Assembly: GCA_018432315.1 (NCBI GenBank)
Contig: JAHDLB010000010.1
Location: forward strand, 1 to 64,000
Direction of reading: 5' to 3'
Source of the DNA: Anaerolineae bacterium
Lineage (GTDB): Bacteria; Chloroflexota; Anaerolineae; Aggregatilineales; Aggregatilineaceae
DNA length: 64,000 nt
Below, piece after piece: positions 48,315-57,138 of the stretch (positions are counted from its first letter, which is position 1; each line of letters starts with the position of its first letter). The position numbers and the translations under genes are program-made. The notes below the pieces were generated by a model, which saw only the letters and a program-made list of their open reading frames with translations, was not told where the DNA came from and did not search any database.

Positions 48315-49499
48315 TCAATACAGCGGGATTGACGGGTCAACCTGGCGGGCCCAGGCGTCGATCCCGCCTTGCATGTTGACCAGATTCGTGTACCCGTGCG
48401 CGGCCAGATACTCGATCACCTGGCTGCTGCGAACGCCGTGATGGCAGAACACGACCACGGGCCGGTCGCGCGGGATCTCGACCCGGCGGCTCGCGATCTG
48501 GCTCATGGGGATGTGGATGGCATGGTCCAGGTGGCTGATCTGCAGTTCGTAAGGCTCGCGCACGTCCAGCAAAACGAGCGCCTCGCCGGACTCCAGCCGC
48601 GCGTTGATCTCGCGCGGGGCTAGTTCGGCCTGATGGGACGCTCGATAGGTGCTGTCCTCGTAGGCGGGCATGCCGCAGAAATCCTCGTAGTCGATCAACT
48701 CGGTGATGGTCGGTGAGTCGCCGCAGACCGGGCAGTTGGGCCGCCTGGACAGCTTGATCGTCTCGAACGACATATCCAGCGCGTCATATAACAACAGGCG
48801 CCCGATCAATGGCTCGCCGATACCCAGGATCACTTTGATCGCCTCGGTGGCTTGCAGGGTGCCGATGGTCCCCGGAAGGACGCCCAACACGCCCGCCTCG
48901 GCGCAGCTTGGCACGAGGTGCGGCGGGGGCGGCTCCGGCAGCAGGCAGCGGTAGCACGGGCCATCCGGCGCGCCGAACACGCTCACCTGGCCCTCGAAGC
49001 GGTAGATGCTGCCGTAGACGACGATTCTGCCGAGCATCACTGCCGCGTCGTTGAGCAGGTAGCGCGTGGGGAAATTGTCGGTGCCGTCGAGGATGAGATC
49101 GTATCCGGCCAGAATGTCCAGCGCGTTGTGCCGGGTCAGCGGCACCGGGTACGTGTCGACCGCGATCGCCGGATTCAGGTCGCGCAGGCGGGCCGCCGCC
49201 GACTCGACCTTCGGCGTGCCGACCGCCCGGTCGCTGTGGATGATCTGCCGCTGGAGGTTGCTGGCGTCGACCACGTCGAAATCGACCAGCCCGATGCGTC
49301 CGATCCCCGCCGCCGCGAGGTACATGGCGATCGGGCTGCCCAGGCCGCCGGTGCCGACGACGATGACGCTGGCCGCCTTGAGCCGCTGCTGGCCTTCGAT
49401 GCCCACCTGGGGCAGGGTGAGGTGCCGCCCGTAGCGCGCCAGCTCGGCGGGCGTGAGATCGGTGTGAGAGCCGGTTTCGTGTGTGCCAGGATCGATCAC
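48315..49499 (-). CDS. MoeB/ThiF-type adenylyltransferase fused to rhodanese (MoeZ-like)
   Basis: A 394-residue E1-like enzyme. Residues 15-260: ATP loop VVGTGGLGSP, DFDVVDASNLQRQ, ILDGTDNFPTRYL, zinc pairs CYRC and CPVC, and the PSCAEAGVLGVLPG loop. Residues 285-394 are a rhodanese domain with active-site Cys in VVFCHHGVRSSQ. It activates the C terminus of a small sulfur carrier such as MoaD or ThiS by adenylation and then sulfurates it, for molybdopterin, thiamine or tRNA thiolation. No sulfur carrier gene is in the window. GTG start with AAGGTGA four bases ahead. Confidence 0.94.
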   Translation of the reverse strand: MIDPGTHETGSHTDLTPAELARYGRHLTLPQVGIEGQQRLKAASVIVVGTGGLGSPIAMYLAAAGIGRIGLVDFDVVDASNLQRQIIHSDRAVGTPKVESAAARLRDLNPAIAVDTYPVPLTRHNALDILAGYDLILDGTDNFPTRYLLNDAAVMLGRIVVYGSIYRFEGQVSVFGAPDGPCYRCLLPEPPPPHLVPSCAEAGVLGVLPGTIGTLQATEAIKVILGIGEPLIGRLLLYDALDMSFETIKLSRRPNCPVCGDSPTITELIDYEDFCGMPAYEDSTYRASHQAELAPREINARLESGEALVLLDVREPYELQISHLDHAIHIPMSQIASRRVEIPRDRPVVVFCHHGVRSSQVIEYLAAHGYTNLVNMQGGIDAWARQVDPSIPLY

Positions 49500-49613: not shown

Positions 49614-51065
49614 CTAGACGTTGAACTTCTGCCCCGCGCCGAAGACGCGCCCGCTGAGCTTGAAACCGGCCTCTTCGAGCCGGTCCATGAAGCTGGGGCG
49701 GAAGCCGGTCGGGACGAGCGTGCCGCCGCCGGTGTGGCTGGGGCCGCCGCCTTTGTGATCGGGCGTCTGGTACATGAAGATATCCTGCAAGATGACCTGC
49801 TCGCCTTCCATACCCTGCATCTCGGTGATCTGTACGATCTTGCGGCTGCCATCCTTCAGGCGGCTCTGCTGCACGATCAACTGGACGGCGCTGGCGATCT
49901 GGCGCCGGATGATGCTCACCGGGAGGTCCATACCGGCCATGAGGGCGAGCGTTTCCAGGCGACCGATGCAGTCGCGCGGGCTGTTGGAGTGGACCGTCGT
50001 CAGCGAGCCGTCGTGCCCGGTGTTCATCGCTTGCAGCATGTCGAGCGCCTCGCCCGACCGGCACTCGCCGACGACGATCCGGTCCGGGCGCATGCGCAGG
50101 CTGCCCTTGACCAGGTCGCGGACCGCGAGTTGGCCGTCCTTGGTGCCGGGCACGGGCGGGCAGGTCTCCAGCCGGACGACGTGACGCTGCGAGAGTTGAA
50201 GCTCCGCCGAGTCTTCGATGGTGACGATGCGCTCGTCGTCGGGGATGAACGACGACAGGACGTTGAGCAGCGTCGTCTTGCCGGAGCCGGTGCCGCCGGA
50301 GACGACGACATTCAGCCGCGCGACGACGCACGCCTGCAGAAATTCCGCGACCTCTTCGGTGAACGAGCCCCACTCGATCAGGTTCTCGACGGTGAGCCGT
50401 TTTTCGGGGAATTTGCGGATGGTGAGCGTCGTGCCTTCCAGGGCCGAGGGCGGCATGATGGCGTGCACGCGCGAGCCGTCGGGCAGGCGGGCGTCGACCA
50501 TCGGGTGGTTCCGGTCGAAATTGCGCTGGAGCGGGCGCACGATGCGCTGCGCGGTCCACTGAACGTGCTCTTCGTCGTCGAATACGTACTCCGTTTCGAG
50601 CAGCTTGCCCTTGTACTCCGCGAAGATGGTGTCTGGCCCGTTGACCATGATCTCGGAGTAGCTTCTGTCACGGACCAGCGGCTCGATGGCGCCAAAACCG
50701 AGCAGGTCCCAGATCAGGGCCGTTTCCAGCTCGGCCAGCTCGGCGGCGGACAGCCGCACTCCGGTTCGCTGGAGGAGCACCTTGAGCCGGTCGCACACGA
50801 TTTGCTGGTGTTCCGGGTTGCTGCTATCCATCTGATCGAGTTCGTCCGGCGTCGCCAGCAGTTTGGGCCGGATCTGCCGGCGCAGGTCGGCGAGGCGCGG
50901 CGGCAGGCGCTTTTTGTTGGCCGGGCCGGTTTCGACCGAAACCAGGGTCGGGCGCTCGTCCGGTTCGGGTTCCGGTGTGACAGGCGGCGGTGCGCTGTCC
51001 TGGGCGGGTTGGAGCGTGTCCGGCGGTGGTGTGATGCGGCTCAAGCGGGAGATTCGTGATCCCAT
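49614..51065 (-). CDS. cpaF: TadA/CpaF-type secretion ATPase
   Basis: A 483-residue type II/IV secretion ATPase of the CpaF branch. After a Pro-rich N terminus the motifs are: GAIEPLVRDRSYSEIMVNGP, IRKF, Walker A SGGTGSGKTTLLN, the Asp box TIEDSAELQL, RPDRIVVGECRSGEA (Walker B), and a His box GHDGSLTTVHSNS. CpaF energises assembly of Flp/Tad pili or type IV-like secretion. The window has no tadB, tadC, prepilin peptidase or pilin gene, so the partner genes must lie elsewhere. The last 45 residues are Gly/Pro-rich and unusual. Confidence 0.95.
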   Translation of the reverse strand: MGSRISRLSRITPPPDTLQPAQDSAPPPVTPEPEPDERPTLVSVETGPANKKRLPPRLADLRRQIRPKLLATPDELDQMDSSNPEHQQIVCDRLKVLLQRTGVRLSAAELAELETALIWDLLGFGAIEPLVRDRSYSEIMVNGPDTIFAEYKGKLLETEYVFDDEEHVQWTAQRIVRPLQRNFDRNHPMVDARLPDGSRVHAIMPPSALEGTTLTIRKFPEKRLTVENLIEWGSFTEEVAEFLQACVVARLNVVVSGGTGSGKTTLLNVLSSFIPDDERIVTIEDSAELQLSQRHVVRLETCPPVPGTKDGQLAVRDLVKGSLRMRPDRIVVGECRSGEALDMLQAMNTGHDGSLTTVHSNSPRDCIGRLETLALMAGMDLPVSIIRRQIASAVQLIVQQSRLKDGSRKIVQITEMQGMEGEQVILQDIFMYQTPDHKGGGPSHTGGGTLVPTGFRPSFMDRLEEAGFKLSGRVFGAGQKFNV

Positions 51066-51322: not shown

Positions 51323-52102
51323 ATGTTTCAACAAAGCCGCCGGGGAACCATCGTCTGGCTGTTCATCGTTGGGTTGGCGCTGAGCTTGACGCTGGCCGCC
51401 GGTGCGATTCCCACGGAGATCGGCGTGGCGCTGCTGGCTGCCTACCTGGGCCTGGCGCTGCTGGTGGCCCGCAACGTGCCGCTGGGCGACGTGATGAGCA
51501 CGCTGCCCAGCCGGACCAGCCGCCAGCCCCAGGCGACCGAAATGGCGCGCGAAGCCGTCGCGCGGGCGCGCAGCCATCCCGCCTACGATGCCCTGGTGCA
51601 GTTGCTGGACGTGGGCCTGATCGTCGATGAGCAGCGCCCCGATGGCCTATCGCTGCGCCGCGGGCGGTTCATCTCGCTCGACGACGAGGGGATCAGGCCG
51701 TTCGCCATCGTGACGGTGCCCGGCGCGCTGGCCGATCGCCTGGGCCGCGTCCGGTTCGAGTTGCGCGACGAAACAGGCAAGGCGCAGTACGTCTATGAAG
51801 ACGAGAAATGGCTCCAGGCCGGCGAGAACATTCTGCTGCCCGACTACCGGTTTCCAATCCGGAAAAACAAGCAGGAACTCGAGGCGGGTGGGTGGACGCT
51901 GCTGGTCATGGTGGACGGCGGGATGATCGGGATGCACCATTTCAGCCTGTCGCCCTCGCTGCGCGAGCGGCGGCGCGAACTGACGTCGACCGATGGCGAG
52001 CTGCGCGAGCGCATCTGGCGCAGCCGCGAAGATGACGAGTCCCTGCCGCTGAGCCTCGAAGAGCTGCTGCGGCAGCAGAGCCGCCAGCGTCACCAGAGTT
52101 GA
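51323..52102 (+). CDS. Membrane protein with cytoplasmic beta-domain, paralogue 1
   Basis: A 259-residue protein, first of eight tightly packed genes. Two helices (about 9-28 and 33-50) follow a basic N terminus, so by the positive-inside rule both ends are cytoplasmic. The soluble domain (90-210) is beta-rich: QLLDVGLIVDEQ, IRPFAIVTVPG, GRVRFELRDETG, GENILLPDYRFP and GGWTLLVMVDG. The same string of motifs occurs in the next two genes. A charged C-terminal tail holds STDGELRER and LSLEELLRQQ. I do not recognise a named family; the fold may be Ig-like. ATG 51323 fits, with GGGCGAG ahead. Confidence 0.8.
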   Translation: MFQQSRRGTIVWLFIVGLALSLTLAAGAIPTEIGVALLAAYLGLALLVARNVPLGDVMSTLPSRTSRQPQATEMAREAVARARSHPAYDALVQLLDVGLIVDEQRPDGLSLRRGRFISLDDEGIRPFAIVTVPGALADRLGRVRFELRDETGKAQYVYEDEKWLQAGENILLPDYRFPIRKNKQELEAGGWTLLVMVDGGMIGMHHFSLSPSLRERRRELTSTDGELRERIWRSREDDESLPLSLEELLRQQSRQRHQS

Positions 52103-52113
52103 GGCCGGATGCG

Positions 52114-52815
52114 ATGATGATGGGCAGCATGATGGGCAGCGTGTTCTTCATCCTGTTCATGCTCCTGGTTCTGTCGTTCCTGGTTGCGGCTTTTTCGGCG
52201 GGACGGCACAAGGCTGCGCCCCGCACGAACAGCCGCCGGAAGCGCACGGTGCAGCGGCGTCCGGGCAGCGAGGCCGGGCGCATGGCGATGCAGCGGGCGG
52301 GCTACGAGGGCGAGGGAGCGACCGACTACGTCCAGGTGCTGGATATCGGGCTGCTGGCCTACCGGCACACGAACGAGCCCAAGCTGGTCCGTTACGGCGA
52401 CGTGTTGATGGACACGCACCACCTGCGCCCGTTCGCCGAGTTGTGGCTGCCGTACCGGGCGCGGGGCACGGTTCGCTTCGAGATGATCGATGGCGAGGGG
52501 CGGCTGCGCTACGCTGACGAGAGCCCGTACGATCTGGTTCGCGGACCGAACACGCTGCTGCCGAACACGTGGCTGCCCCTGCGCGAGAAAGCCGTGGCGC
52601 CGGGACAGTGGCGGCTGCGCGTGTTGGCGAATGACACGCTGCTGGCGAGTCACGTCTTTGGCTGGCGGCCTGTTGGCGGCGGCGAGATACAGGAATTCGT
52701 CGCCTCGGATGGCGAGATGTCGCCCACGCTCATCCAGGCGCTGGAACGCCGGCAGGTCAGCCAGGCGATGAGCCTGAACGACCTGCTCGCCGATCAGGAA
52801 GAGTGGATGGGATAG
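52114..52815 (+). CDS. Membrane protein with cytoplasmic beta-domain, paralogue 2
   Basis: A 233-residue homologue of the previous protein. One helix (about 8-28) is followed by a strongly basic stretch (RHKAAPRTNSRRKRTVQRR), which places the remaining domain in the cytoplasm. The shared motifs are VQVLDIGLLAYR, LRPFAELWLPY, GTVRFEMIDGEGRLRY, NTLLPNTWLPL and GQWRLRVLAND. The tail again has SDGEMSP and MSLNDLL, matching paralogue 1. The ATG at 52114 has GAGG nine bases upstream and is 11 bases past the previous stop. Function unknown. Confidence 0.8.
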   Translation: MMMGSMMGSVFFILFMLLVLSFLVAAFSAGRHKAAPRTNSRRKRTVQRRPGSEAGRMAMQRAGYEGEGATDYVQVLDIGLLAYRHTNEPKLVRYGDVLMDTHHLRPFAELWLPYRARGTVRFEMIDGEGRLRYADESPYDLVRGPNTLLPNTWLPLREKAVAPGQWRLRVLANDTLLASHVFGWRPVGGGEIQEFVASDGEMSPTLIQALERRQVSQAMSLNDLLADQEEWMG

Positions 52816-52818
52816 GCT

Positions 52819-53583
52819 GTGGTTGTAAGCGATCTGCGCCGGAAACGAGCGCGCGCCAACCGGCGCGGCCTGTTGGGAACGGCTGCGGGTTTCGCGCTGT
52901 TGTACGCCGCGCTCAGCCTGGCGTTCGGCCCCTGGCGGGCCGTGGCGTACATCACGGCGGGCCTGTTTGGGGCGTTGTTCGCGCTGGCGTTTTACTTCTG
53001 GGGCGCGATGCTGTTTGGCGGGACGTGGCAGTTTCTGCGGCGGCGAACCCCGGTGCCCTGGGCGCTGGACGACGACGCGAGCGCGGTGCCCGTGCACGAT
53101 ATCGATCCTGGCCTGGAATTGATGGCCGCCGGGATGCTGGTCTACCGGGCCGGGGAAGCGAGGCCGCGGGCGTATTTCCGGCAGGTGCCGGTGGCGGATG
53201 CCCGGGCTGTCCGCCCGTTCGTGGTGGCGCGGACCGGCGTGGCGCGGCGGTGCGAATTTGCGATCGCGCTCTACGACGAGCACGATCGGGCCCGGCACCA
53301 GGATTCGTTCACGACTGAACTGGGCGACCGGGCGGCGCTGGTGGTCCCGCCCTACCGGCTGGCGGTGGACGATCCGGCCCGGCTGGTGGGCCGCCGCTGG
53401 AGCTTGCAGGTCCGGTCGGGCGGGACGGTTGTGGCGGCGTGCGGTTTCCGGTTCGTGAACGGAACCACGCAGCCCGAGTCGGTGTTGGACTGGCAGGCGC
53501 ACATGCTGCCGCGTCTGGTGGACGAGGTGATCGCGCGGGACACTCTGGCCCAGGCGGGCGACGTGGCGCTGAAGGAAAGGTAA
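52819..53583 (+). CDS. Membrane protein with cytoplasmic beta-domain, paralogue 3
   Basis: A 254-residue third member of the set. A very basic N terminus (RRKRARANRRG), two helices (about 18-37 and 42-66) and then RRR put the soluble domain inside the cell. Shared landmarks are GMLVYRAGEARPRAY, VRPFVVARTG, CEFAIALYDEHDRAR, ALVVPPYRLAV and RRWSLQVRSGG. It is the most divergent of the three and lacks the DGE/SLxxLL tail. It starts with GTG, three bases after the previous stop, and ends three bases before the E2-like gene. Confidence 0.75.
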   Translation: MVVSDLRRKRARANRRGLLGTAAGFALLYAALSLAFGPWRAVAYITAGLFGALFALAFYFWGAMLFGGTWQFLRRRTPVPWALDDDASAVPVHDIDPGLELMAAGMLVYRAGEARPRAYFRQVPVADARAVRPFVVARTGVARRCEFAIALYDEHDRARHQDSFTTELGDRAALVVPPYRLAVDDPARLVGRRWSLQVRSGGTVVAACGFRFVNGTTQPESVLDWQAHMLPRLVDEVIARDTLAQAGDVALKER

Positions 53584-53586
53584 ACG

Positions 53587-54066
53587 ATGGCGAGAGAGCA
53601 ATGGTGGGGGACGCCCAACCGGGTGTCGAACCGGCTGCGGCTGGAAGTGGATATGATGCGCGCCACCTTTGCGGATACGTTCCGGTTGGTAGTGCCCAAG
53701 CGGGACCTGCTGTACTGGGTGGGCGACGTGGAGATCAACCTGCACGGCATTCCCCAGCGCCTGCACACGCTCAAGATTCTCTATCCCGAAGAATACCCGA
53801 ATCGCCCGGCGGAGGCGTACGTCCTCAAGCCGACGGTCTACAGCGAAAAACACCAGTTTGAAGATGGGCAGTTGTGCCTGTTCAACCCTAAAGATGGCGT
53901 TACTTACGGGTGGAATCCGAGCACGTCGACGGCAGTGACCGTGGCAGGGTGGGCGATTCAGTGGTTGTACGCCTATTATACGTGGCGCGCAACGGGCAAC
54001 TGGCCCGGCATTGAAGAAAGGATGCCCCCGGTCAAGGACCGGCGGCAGCGTAGGAGGAGATGGTGA
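53587..54066 (+). CDS. E2-like ubiquitin-conjugating-fold (UBC) protein
   Basis: A 159-residue prokaryotic E2-like protein. The UBC signature is HTLKILYPEEYPNRPAEAYVLKP (strand, YP turn, proline-rich strand), followed by SEKHQFEDGQLCLFNP with His89 and the candidate thioester Cys97, and then the helix starting STSTAVTVAGWAIQWLYAYY. E2 proteins accept an activated ubiquitin-like tail from E1 on the cysteine and hand it to a target. The sequence ends in a basic tail, RRQRRRRW, which could touch the membrane or nucleic acid. The stop overlaps the JAB start by one base (TGATG). The neighbouring JAB and E1-like genes strongly support the assignment. Confidence 0.88.
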   Translation: MAREQWWGTPNRVSNRLRLEVDMMRATFADTFRLVVPKRDLLYWVGDVEINLHGIPQRLHTLKILYPEEYPNRPAEAYVLKPTVYSEKHQFEDGQLCLFNPKDGVTYGWNPSTSTAVTVAGWAIQWLYAYYTWRATGNWPGIEERMPPVKDRRQRRRRW

Positions 54067-55259
54067 TGGGCAGCCAGGCACCGGGAAATGTGCGCGATGT
54101 TCCTCAGGTGGTGATCGCCCAGCGGGTGGTCGACAAACTCGTGCGTGGGGCGCTGTTGTATCCCGAGCCGGAAACCGGTGAGGCCATGGTTGGCCTGGTG
54201 ATCCCGCGCGAGGGGCACGCCGAGCCTGACATCTACGTGCTGGACACGATCAGCCCCGGCGAGCACGCCGTCCGCGAGTGGGGCATGTTCGAGCAGGGCG
54301 ACGACTGGCAGGGCGACGTGTTCAACTGGATGTACTACAACTGGGAGGCGTTCCGCGAGCTGCGGCGGCCTTCGTATGGCAACGCGCTGGCGGCCAAGTG
54401 GGACACACCGCTCCGGCACGTGGGCGACTGGCACAAACAGCCGGGCGACATGACCGAGCCTTCGAGCGGCGATGCCCAGACGGCCCGGCGCATGATCGAC
54501 GACGTAGAGACTCCGGTTGAGCACATCGTCGCGCCGATCGTGACGATGTACCCGCTGGCGCCGGTGCCGCTGTTCGCCGGGAAACCCGCCAGCGCTGAGC
54601 AGGGCGCCGAAGCGAACGCGACAGAAACGCCACCCGACGACGCGGCAGGAACGGAGCATCCCCCTGCGCCCGGCGGGGCCGCACCGAGCGCCGAACAGCC
54701 GGACGTGCCGGCCCCGGCGGCTATGCCGGAGAGCGGGCCGAACGCGATAATCAAGACGCTGGAGGACGAAGGCTGGCACATCCGGATCGATTTCTGGTAC
54801 ATGAGCAGACGTCAGCGGCAGTTCGTGCCCGTGACGCCTGTCGTGTGGCCGGACGACCGGCTGCCGTCGGTGCCCCCGGTGGCGTGGCACCTGGCGCACC
54901 CGCGCCGCTTCGACCAGGAGTTCGACCTGCTGACCGACGCCGGTTACGCGATCGACGTGGTGCGCTGGGACGCGGACGGGAAGCCGCCATACGAGATTTG
55001 CTTCTCGGTGTACAAGCCCGGCGGCACGCACGTGTTCCTGCTGGTGACATCGGTCGATTACCCGGTGACCCAGCCCGCGGTGCGCGTCGCGCCGCTGGTC
55101 AACGTGGCGGATGACGAAGACGTGTTCGAGAAACTGTACGAAGCGTCCGAGCCGGTTGGCGCGCTGCACATGCCGGAATGGTCCTGGGACTCCAAGCGGA
55201 CTTTGTACGAGCTGGTGCGGGACGTCGAAGGCAAGTTCAAAGGGAAGCGCGTGCCATGA
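54066..55259 (+). CDS. JAB/MPN-domain protein with C-terminal UBC/RWD-like domain
   Basis: A 397-residue protein. Residues 15-150 resemble a JAB (JAMM) isopeptidase: ETGEAMVGLVIP (candidate catalytic Glu36) and VGDWHKQPGDMTEPSSGD, where the H-x-H-x10-D zinc motif is present in spacing but reads H123-x-Q125-x10-D136. Residues 170-225 are a Pro/Ala linker. Residues 226-397 look like a second E2/RWD-type fold: YEICFSVYKPGGTHVFLLVT, SVDYPVTQPAVRVAP (the YP turn) and a final helix TLYELVRDVEGKF, with no catalytic Cys. AGGAGG lies eight bases before the ATG. JAB enzymes cut ubiquitin-like tails; the Gln swap may weaken or abolish this. Confidence 0.78.
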   Translation: MGSQAPGNVRDVPQVVIAQRVVDKLVRGALLYPEPETGEAMVGLVIPREGHAEPDIYVLDTISPGEHAVREWGMFEQGDDWQGDVFNWMYYNWEAFRELRRPSYGNALAAKWDTPLRHVGDWHKQPGDMTEPSSGDAQTARRMIDDVETPVEHIVAPIVTMYPLAPVPLFAGKPASAEQGAEANATETPPDDAAGTEHPPAPGGAAPSAEQPDVPAPAAMPESGPNAIIKTLEDEGWHIRIDFWYMSRRQRQFVPVTPVVWPDDRLPSVPPVAWHLAHPRRFDQEFDLLTDAGYAIDVVRWDADGKPPYEICFSVYKPGGTHVFLLVTSVDYPVTQPAVRVAPLVNVADDEDVFEKLYEASEPVGALHMPEWSWDSKRTLYELVRDVEGKFKGKRVP

Positions 55260-56152
55260 GCTGGGACCGAGTCGAACGACTGCTGGGATCGGATGCGCTG
55301 GCGCACCTATCTGCACAAACGGTGGGCATCATCGGGCTGGGATCGGGCGGCAGCTTCGTGGCGATCAGCCTCGCGATGAGCGGGGTGGGGCGTTTCGTAC
55401 TGATCGACGATGATGTGATGGAGCAGGCGAACGTCGTGCGGCATGCCGCCGATTTGCGCTACGTGGGGCAACCCAAAGCCGAGTCCATGGCGGACCTGAT
55501 CCGCCACCGCAATCCGTCCGCCGAGATCAAGGCGATCCACGGGCGCGCCGAGGATCACCTCGACCTGCTGGCCGAGATGGATGTCGTGGTGGCGGGCGTG
55601 GACGGCGAAGGCCCGAAATACCTGATCAACCAGGCGGCGCTCGAACACGGGCGGACGGTGGTGTACGCCGGGGTCTACGAGCGGGGCGAGGGCGGCGACG
55701 TGTGCGTGATTCACGCCAACGACGGGCCCTGTTACGCCTGTTGGGCGGAGCACCTGCGCCAGGGGTTGGCCGAGCCCGCGCCCGGCGCCCCTGACCTGGA
55801 CTACGGCATGATCGGCCCGGATGGCACGCTGGCCGCCGAGCCGGGACTGTGGCTGCACGTGGTGCGCGTCGCGAGCGTGCAGGCGGACATGGCGCTCAAC
55901 GAGCTGTTGCGAGGGATGCCGGCGCATCGGGAAATGCCCGCGAATACCGTCGTTCTCGCGAACACGCGCCTTGAGATTTACGAAGGGTGGACAACACTGC
56001 CCTATGGCGCCGAGTGGGTGAACGTCCCGCGCAACCCGGAATGCCTGGTGTGTGGGAAGTCGGGCCGGACGGAGTCCGCCGATGCGCTCAGCCTGGACGA
56101 CCTGATGAACCTGGGCAATGTCACGTACGAGCAGGACGAAAGCGGGCAGTAG
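55256..56152 (+). CDS. ThiF/E1-like ubiquitin-activating-type enzyme
   Basis: A 298-residue E1-like adenylyltransferase. ATP loop GIIGLGSGGSF (25-35), then LIDDDVMEQANVVRH with the conserved Asp and Arg63, K74 in GQPKAES, and VVAGVDGEGPKYLINQ in place of the usual TDN stretch. Two CxxC pairs (CYAC at 159-162 and CLVC at 263-266) should bind zinc. It would adenylate the C-terminal Gly of a ubiquitin-like protein. It is clearly different from the MoeB-rhodanese protein at 48315. The start overlaps the JAB stop by four bases (ATGA). No obvious modifier gene is adjacent. Confidence 0.93.
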   Translation: MSWDRVERLLGSDALAHLSAQTVGIIGLGSGGSFVAISLAMSGVGRFVLIDDDVMEQANVVRHAADLRYVGQPKAESMADLIRHRNPSAEIKAIHGRAEDHLDLLAEMDVVVAGVDGEGPKYLINQAALEHGRTVVYAGVYERGEGGDVCVIHANDGPCYACWAEHLRQGLAEPAPGAPDLDYGMIGPDGTLAAEPGLWLHVVRVASVQADMALNELLRGMPAHREMPANTVVLANTRLEIYEGWTTLPYGAEWVNVPRNPECLVCGKSGRTESADALSLDDLMNLGNVTYEQDESGQ

Positions 56153-56188
56153 TGGTGATGGCAGCAAGACAGCAAGGATACGAGGTTC

Positions 56189-56509
56189 ATGACTGACAAC
56201 ATTCTCCCTCCTGACAATGCGCCTGACAACGGCAACGGCGCGGCGATCCCGCCGGAAACACCGGACGATTCGAACGCCAACCAAGTGCCCGACAACCCCG
56301 GCGCGGCGCATGACGACGACCTGGGGCCCCGCCTGGAGCGGCTCGGCGGCGAGCCCGCGCCGGACATCACGCCGGAGGAATTCGCCCGGCTCCAGCAGGC
56401 GGGCCAGATTCACATCGATCCGCGTGGCCGGGTGCGCACCACGCAGCGAAATGAGACGGATGCTGGCGTGTCGCTGCGCAAGCGGCGGGCGTGGTATCTC
56501 CCGGAATGA
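56189..56509 (+). CDS. Small acidic, largely disordered protein in the E1/E2 operon
   Basis: A 106-residue protein. Residues 1-55 are Asp/Asn/Pro-rich and probably disordered. The rest holds a short helix (TPEEFARLQQAG) and a strand-turn stretch (QIHIDPRGRVRTTQ), ending in RKRRAWYLPE. It has no glycine pair at the C terminus, so it is not a conventional ubiquitin-like modifier. Its position between the E1-like and Nudix genes, overlapping the latter by four bases, suggests a subunit, adaptor or substrate of the system. Family unknown. Confidence 0.7.
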   Translation: MTDNILPPDNAPDNGNGAAIPPETPDDSNANQVPDNPGAAHDDDLGPRLERLGGEPAPDITPEEFARLQQAGQIHIDPRGRVRTTQRNETDAGVSLRKRRAWYLPE

Positions 56510-57138
56510 GTCCGATCGATCTGGAGCGAGTCCGCGCGGCGCTGGCGCTGGACCCCTTCGACGCTGTGGACGCGCAGCGCCGGATGGCGCCTCAGCCGCG
56601 CGTGTTGTATCGCAGTGAGAACCGCGCGGGGCACCCTCGCCAGGCCAGCGTGATGGTCTTGCTCTACCCGCTTGACGACGACCTGGGAATGGTGCTGGTG
56701 CAGCGCTCTGAGAACGAGCGCGACGTTCACAGCGGCCAGATCGCGCTGCCCGGTGGAGGGCGCGAGGGCGACGAAAGCGCGATCGAGACGGCGCTGCGCG
56801 AAACCGGCGAGGAGCTTGGCGTCACCAGCGGGATAGAGATCGTGGGCATGCTGACACCCCTCTACATTCCGCCGAGCGATTTCGAGGTGCATCCGGTGGT
56901 GGGCTATCTGCCGCGCCGCCCGGCGTGGGTGCCCGACCCGGCTGAGGTGGTCGGCGTGTTGGAATGCCCCATCGACTGGCTGCTGGATGACGATCGCAAG
57001 ATGATCGGCGATTGGGATTTCGGCGGCTACACCATGCGGGTGCCCTGGTACGACGTACACGGACACCGCGTCTGGGGGGCGACCGCGATCATGTTGAGCG
57101 AGCTGGAACAGCGGCTGCGTCGCGTGGTGTCCACGTAG
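56506..57138 (+). CDS. Nudix hydrolase, CoA-pyrophosphatase type (NudL-like)
   Basis: A 210-residue Nudix protein. The Nudix box is GGGREGDESAIETALRETGEELG, read here as G-x5-E-x7-R-E-x2-E-E-x-G, preceded by the NudL-type signature RSENERDVHSGQIALPGG. Enzymes of this kind split coenzyme A or acyl-CoA into 3',5'-ADP and phosphopantetheine. The ATG at 56506 overlaps the previous stop by four bases, so it is translated with the E2/JAB/E1 genes, an unexpected partner. It may be a housekeeping gene caught in the operon or may process a nucleotide linked to it. Confidence 0.9.
   Translation: MSPIDLERVRAALALDPFDAVDAQRRMAPQPRVLYRSENRAGHPRQASVMVLLYPLDDDLGMVLVQRSENERDVHSGQIALPGGGREGDESAIETALRETGEELGVTSGIEIVGMLTPLYIPPSDFEVHPVVGYLPRRPAWVPDPAEVVGVLECPIDWLLDDDRKMIGDWDFGGYTMRVPWYDVHGHRVWGATAIMLSELEQRLRRVVST

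Follow-up and report, generated by a model that had tools for sequence, protein, structure and literature searches.

An eight-gene operon at positions 51323–57138 of the DNA stretch analysed here (the window: 64 000 nucleotides, contig JAHDLB010000010.1 of an Anaerolineae bacterium) encodes a membrane-linked cassette built around homologues of the ubiquitin-activating (E1) and ubiquitin-conjugating (E2) enzymes and a JAB protein. The cassette is a vertically inherited core system of one bacterial order, probably the Aggregatilineales (Anaerolineae), and is best read as a new form of bacterial E1–E2–JAB system, set apart from the described systems compared with it below. Its products, P1–P8, are three related membrane proteins, the E2, the JAB protein, the E1, a small partly disordered protein and a Nudix hydrolase. 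The eight open reading frames (ORFs) lie co-oriented on the plus strand, with intergenic spacings of 11, 3, 3, −1, −4, 36 and −4 bases. The original prediction, made from the DNA letters, had claimed this arrangement, and every ORF and spacing was borne out. These are not chance ORFs, since the E2–JAB–E1 order repeats in every related locus of sufficient length. A promoter match on the plus strand was not found.

Co-occurrence of the genes extends across the order, which answers the earlier question of whether they are conserved together in related genomes. An E2 is present in 135 of the 154 genomes of the order and in 87 of the 90 good ones, nearly always in single copy. The membrane protein family occurs in 137 of the 154 and P7 in 135. 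Families f94, f95 and f97, and a single incomplete genome, lack all three together; the remaining absences concern single components, many of them in incomplete genomes. Outside the order, a 400-genome sample of the phylum yielded only six weak E2 matches. In a tree of 31 E2 members the three sampled families each form one group, and none of 200 shuffles was as good. A phage search returned no match, and a plasmid search one weak match. Order-wide co-occurrence, joint absence from whole clades, an E2 tree that follows families and the phage and plasmid searches together mark this as a core system passed on vertically.

The E2 (P4, 53587–54066) is recognised by the E2 models of PADLOC (best 7e-16). 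It also matches E2s of solved structure, among them 8hsb, from a cyclic oligonucleotide-based antiphage signalling system (CBASS), and eukaryotic UBE2L3. A Pfam search with the E2 ORF gave no match. The catalytic cysteine, Cys97, is encoded at 53875–53877 (context KHQFEDGQLC), and both it and a histidine eight residues upstream (His89) are invariant in 89/89 aligned relatives. The UBC fold and Cys97 first proposed for this ORF are thus upheld, and with its family membership, catalytic cysteine and nearby histidine P4 appears to belong to the active E2 (UBC) class. Polybasic C-terminal tails are common in the family, with at least four Arg or Lys residues among the last 10 in 66 of 90 sequences. 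The conserved RRRRR tail of the window E2 is encoded at 54025–54063, and E2 tails sometimes end in W or Y, resembling the tail of P7. Second, divergent E2-like genes were seen at loci L114 and L115, in cassette-bearing genomes G472 and G431.

The E1 (P6, 55256–56152) is a single protein of 298 residues. It matches the ThiF family PF00899 (1e-32), in agreement with its first description as a ThiF/E1-like enzyme, and aligns with MoeB and ThiF. Across 57 complete sequences the residues of the nucleotide site (GxGSGG, D51, D53, N59, R62, K74 and D116, in L039 numbering) are invariant or nearly so. The only invariant cysteines in this set are four of the CxxC zinc type. By family and nucleotide-site residues P6 belongs to the ThiF-type adenylating enzymes, and it lacks the catalytic cysteine of a canonical ubiquitin-type E1. 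With such an enzyme, direct transfer from the adenylate to Cys97 of the E2 would be the simplest route.

The JAB protein (P5, 54066–55259) comprises a JAB/JAMM domain with linker (54066–54770) and a second domain (54771–55259). Similarity to JAB by sequence profile is weak. The structure model (predicted local distance difference test, pLDDT, 86; predicted template modelling score, pTM, 0.82) is confident and matches the JAMM domains found in complexes with Rpn11, CSN5 and BRCC36, so that the JAB/MPN assignment made at the outset is supported by a predicted JAMM fold. Glu36, His123, Ser133 and Asp136 are conserved in 90/90 sequences. The second zinc ligand, at position 125, is Gln in 83 of these, including the window, and His in 7. 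The window protein lacks the complete zinc site E...HxHx7Sx2D. Loss of the zinc histidine looks derived, because the most divergent member (L094) and a sister cassette (L109, below) retain it.

The C-terminal approximately 160 residues of P5 are predicted to form a second, inactive UBC/RWD-like domain. In the model, residues ~237–397 consist of N-terminal strands followed by a helix (279–291), four strands (295–301, 310–316, 322–328 and 338–343) and two helices (353–360 and 380–391), which is the UBC/RWD layout. Between strands 3 and 4 lies a (F/Y)PxxxP motif, YPxxxP in the window, of which P333 is invariant and P337 nearly so. Profile–profile comparison with the E2 family recovers this register at a probability of 54 % and E 1.3e-4, against E values of 0.05 or worse when unrelated operon domains were compared. 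The active-site cysteine is missing: the sole invariant cysteine, C312, is situated in strand 2, away from the E2 active-site position.

The three membrane proteins open the operon. P1 (51323–52102) and P3 (52819–53583) have a basic N-terminus followed by a two-helix transmembrane hairpin. P2 (52114–52815) has a single transmembrane helix followed by a stretch with nine basic and no acidic residues. The soluble domains are homologous (hhalign 99.5, 97.4 and 95.7 %), which confirms that the three are related, as paralogues. The domain they share is modelled as an immunoglobulin (Ig)-like beta-sandwich; the solved structures closest to it, UNC119 and the carbohydrate-binding domain of Wzt, match with a low TM-score. 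This fold rules out P1–P3 as ubiquitin-like proteins (Ubls). The transmembrane helices have basic flanks; by the positive-inside rule the Ig-like domains probably face the cytoplasm, like the enzymes.

A short C-terminal motif, SLx[DE]L, is common to P1 (LSLEELL), P2 (MSLNDLL) and the E1 (LSLDDL). Scored within the last 75 residues, it is found in 38/39 P1/P2 proteins and in 50/60 ORFs of the E1 cluster, which includes truncated and MoeB-like members, against 1/724 other conserved neighbouring genes, which together with the window formed the background. No six-frame ORF of at least 60 residues in the window carries it apart from P1, P2 and the E1. P3 lacks the tail. Where P1 and P2 are encoded elsewhere in the genome, P2 retains SLD[DE]LL and P1 a relaxed version. 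The motif is helical in the P1 structure model, in the C-terminal helix of the protein. The E1 is unrelated to P1 and P2, so that the motif does not stem from common descent, and a common binding partner would explain it.

Several bacterial systems encode comparable enzymes. Type II CBASS (Cap2/Cap3, and the stand-alone E2 8hsb) likewise has an E2 with a related LCLF...W...TGxWxG core, a ThiF-type E1 and a JAB protein. Unlike it, the operon encodes no CD-NTase among its eight products, as originally noted. A CBASS-like E2 of another family of the same class, outside the order, does adjoin a clear CD-NTase (L110:5397–6904) and served as positive control. The JAB protein with its RWD-like domain, the Ig-like membrane proteins and the vertical, order-wide core also differ from CBASS, which is sporadic; the patchy, defence-like spread expected of type II CBASS is not seen here, where the sampled families are monophyletic and few good genomes lack the E2. 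Bil operons (BilABCD) likewise have separate E2, JAB and E1 genes. Their E2 bears a CEHH motif, and their E1 an inactive half and a Cys domain (PMC11354881). The present E1 has neither of these parts, the E2 has its upstream histidine in place of CEHH, and the eight products include no BilA-like tandem Ubl gene, for which the operon also leaves no gap. Absence of a CD-NTase sets the cassette apart from CBASS, and absence of a Ubl, a simple E1 and the lack of CEHH set it apart from Bil, which agrees with the distinct type first suspected. Operons 6a–6e of Iyer, Burroughs and Aravind (2006) combine E1, E2 and JAB in one operon; they are sporadic, some are on mobile elements, and they carry fusions or Ubls (PMC1779556). 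These fusions and Ubls are absent here, and none of the operons is tabulated with Ig-like membrane proteins. Operon 6e encodes a polyUbl, an inactive E2/RWD-like protein and a JAB–E1 fusion (PMC1779556), whereas in the window JAB and E1 are separate, a polyUbl is lacking and the RWD-like domain is fused to JAB. FtsH-ternary Ubl systems (Kaur et al. 2020, PMC7159879) resemble the cassette in that JAB, E1 and E2 are encoded together in bacteria. Unlike the cassette, they fuse a Ubl to the E2 and also encode an E3 of RING type, vWA/MoxR components and caspase-like effectors. No E3 is present among the eight products. A literature search on E2/JAB systems of Chloroflexi or Aggregatilineales found no prior description, although an earlier mention is possible.

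Sister cassettes are found in another Chloroflexota class, that of genome G267 (L109:1–11001 and L112:703–9670). These similarly encode an E2, a JAB protein followed by an RWD-like stretch, an E1 and membrane proteins. In their class any E2 match is sporadic (11 of 158 genomes). Their neighbouring genes encode membrane proteins, TPR proteins and relatives of SPFH/Band_7, and in several of these products an RWD/UBC-like stretch with F/YPxxxP is present; the RWD stretches were read by eye, except for one PF05773 match at E 0.003, below its cut-off. The Ig-like family, P7 and the SLxxL tail were not seen in L109 or L112, and the sister E1s likewise lack the tail. Membrane-linked E2–JAB–E1 sets that include UBC-like domains without activity may thus recur more widely among Chloroflexota.

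The reading we favour, with a little more confidence than doubt, is a conjugation pathway at the membrane face, assembled through the SLxxL tails. (i) P1, P2 and, in the window, P3 would be anchored in the inner membrane with their Ig-like domains in the cytoplasm. (ii) The tails of the E1, P1 and P2 would most likely share a single docking partner, as their common motif suggests, which would bring the enzymes to the membrane. (iii) Two further tails, the polybasic one of the E2 and the basic-aromatic one of P7, may aid this placement. (iv) The E1 would adenylate the C-terminus of a modifier and hand the modifier straight to Cys97 of the E2. (v) The RWD-like domain of P5 may hold the E2 or the modifier. 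(vi) The E2 would pass the modifier on to an amine of a target in or close to the membrane. (vii) JAB would trim the modifier precursor, remove the modifier again, or both. Complex formation, conjugation itself and the direction of JAB action are inferred. The membrane proteins themselves, or something they recruit, were originally taken as probable targets; a part as scaffold or recruiter agrees no less well with the SLxxL tails shared by P1, P2 and the E1 and with the probably cytoplasmic Ig-like domains, and the membrane proteins are at most candidate targets.

Several points weigh against such a pathway. Given Gln125, the peptidase activity of P5 may be weak or lost. Neither a Ubl nor a conserved C-terminal glycine is found in the operon. 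A PDB profile search using the RWD-like domain of P5 alone gave no match, which leaves the identity of this domain, drawn from the predicted model and the 54 % profile match, a supported prediction rather than proof. We know of no binding partner for SLxxL tails.

It is also plausible, at somewhat below an even chance, that the operon is not one unit: the machine would consist of E2–JAB–E1, P1/P2 and P7, with P3 and the Nudix hydrolase mere neighbours. This is compatible with the conjugation pathway. E2, JAB and E1 stay together in every sufficiently long locus, and where the cassette is split, as has happened in several lineages, it falls into three modules, E2–JAB–E1, P1–P2 and P7–Nudix. In a marine/sponge group, P1/P2 and P7–Nudix have moved away yet persist. 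P3 is restricted to part of the family and missing in many loci. Against a neighbour's role for the Nudix gene, it and P7 remain adjacent when apart from the E1, as in L116, where they lie ~11 kb from it. The Nudix protein (P8, 56506–57138) matches PF00293 (2e-11), as predicted; it is nearest to CoA pyrophosphatase, under the cut-off of the CoA pyrophosphatase model. Its membership in the machine is uncertain, and the gene may be a neighbour only. The Nudix protein of the most divergent cassette has an internal MSLSELL (L142:700–1365).

P7 (56189–56509) was first described as a small disordered protein. This holds for its acidic N-terminal half; the last ~60 residues are highly conserved (ITPEEFARLQ...SLRKRRAWY). 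As a special case of the conjugation pathway, though an unlikely one, P7 itself would be the modifier, a Pup-like disordered tag on an E1–E2 chassis, its C-terminus adenylated by the E1, perhaps after JAB trims the 0–6 residues past SLRKRRAWY; the E2 would then attach it to targets near the membrane. In CBASS, the protein whose C-terminus the E1–E2 acts on is likewise not a Ubl. P7 is encoded downstream of the E1 and, also where it is unlinked, accompanies the E2 across the order, its invariant block ends 0–6 residues before the C-terminus in 35/37 sequences, and the operon gaps are too small to hold a Ubl gene. Its last residues are, however, variable and not glycine, and the basic-aromatic end also resembles a membrane-surface anchor; to our knowledge no modifier has an end of this kind. 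A still fuller version is rather improbable: constitutive, order-wide housekeeping modification of proteins (or even lipids) on the inner membrane surface, in place of an immune function, with P7 as the Pup-like modifier and the SLxxL tails as a code by which the E1 joins Ig-domain membrane scaffolds. Other modifiers were considered. None of the eight products is a Ubl, P7 being short and not beta-grasp-like. The 'RLGG' within P7 is internal and not conserved (RLSG, RLAG), and is no ubiquitin-like end. YukD gave no match above cut-off in the organism's own genome. ThiS/MoaD-type Ubls are encoded in this genome, but since such proteins also occur in cassette-lacking genomes their profile singles out no modifier. 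The candidates are P7 itself and, from another locus, a protein of ThiS/MoaD type. In several lineages a gene of cluster 24, read by eye as a likely protein-L-isoaspartate methyltransferase, adjoins P7 (L052, L056, L057, L061, L091 and L093).

A scaffold that has lost conjugation, made of the RWD–JAB protein and the Ig-like proteins with E1 and E2 as binding modules, or a system for sulfur or cofactor transfer, is quite improbable. Gln at the JAMM zinc ligand, an E1 without catalytic cysteine and an operon without Ubl would suit it; order-wide conservation of Cys97, His89 and the E1 nucleotide site argues against it. Least credible, and very improbable, is an anti-phage defence cassette of CBASS or Bil type with the membrane proteins as effectors: E2 and E1 do match PADLOC CBASS-type models and transmembrane effectors are common in CBASS, but the nearly universal single-copy distribution, the tree that follows families, the phage and plasmid searches and the missing CD-NTase, which the E2 of L110 does adjoin, stand against it, and a defence island or mobile element is ruled out by distribution, tree and both searches.

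Genes next to the operon were read by eye. The divergent upstream neighbour (49614–51065, minus strand) encodes a TadA/CpaF-like secretion ATPase. About 2 kb upstream of the operon, a separate MoeB/MoeZ-like E1 with an apparent rhodanese domain (48315–49499, minus strand) is without the SLxxL tail.

The bacterial E1–E2–JAB systems studied so far occur sporadically, and most are interpreted as immune systems. A core cassette carried by an entire order is unusual beside these scattered versions. If the conjugation pathway is correct, ubiquitin-like conjugation would serve as bacterial housekeeping. The pairing of an active-looking E2 with a UBC/RWD-like domain predicted to be inactive recalls the eukaryotic partnership of E2s with ubiquitin E2 variants (UEVs), and the system would then bear on the origin of parts of the eukaryotic pathway.

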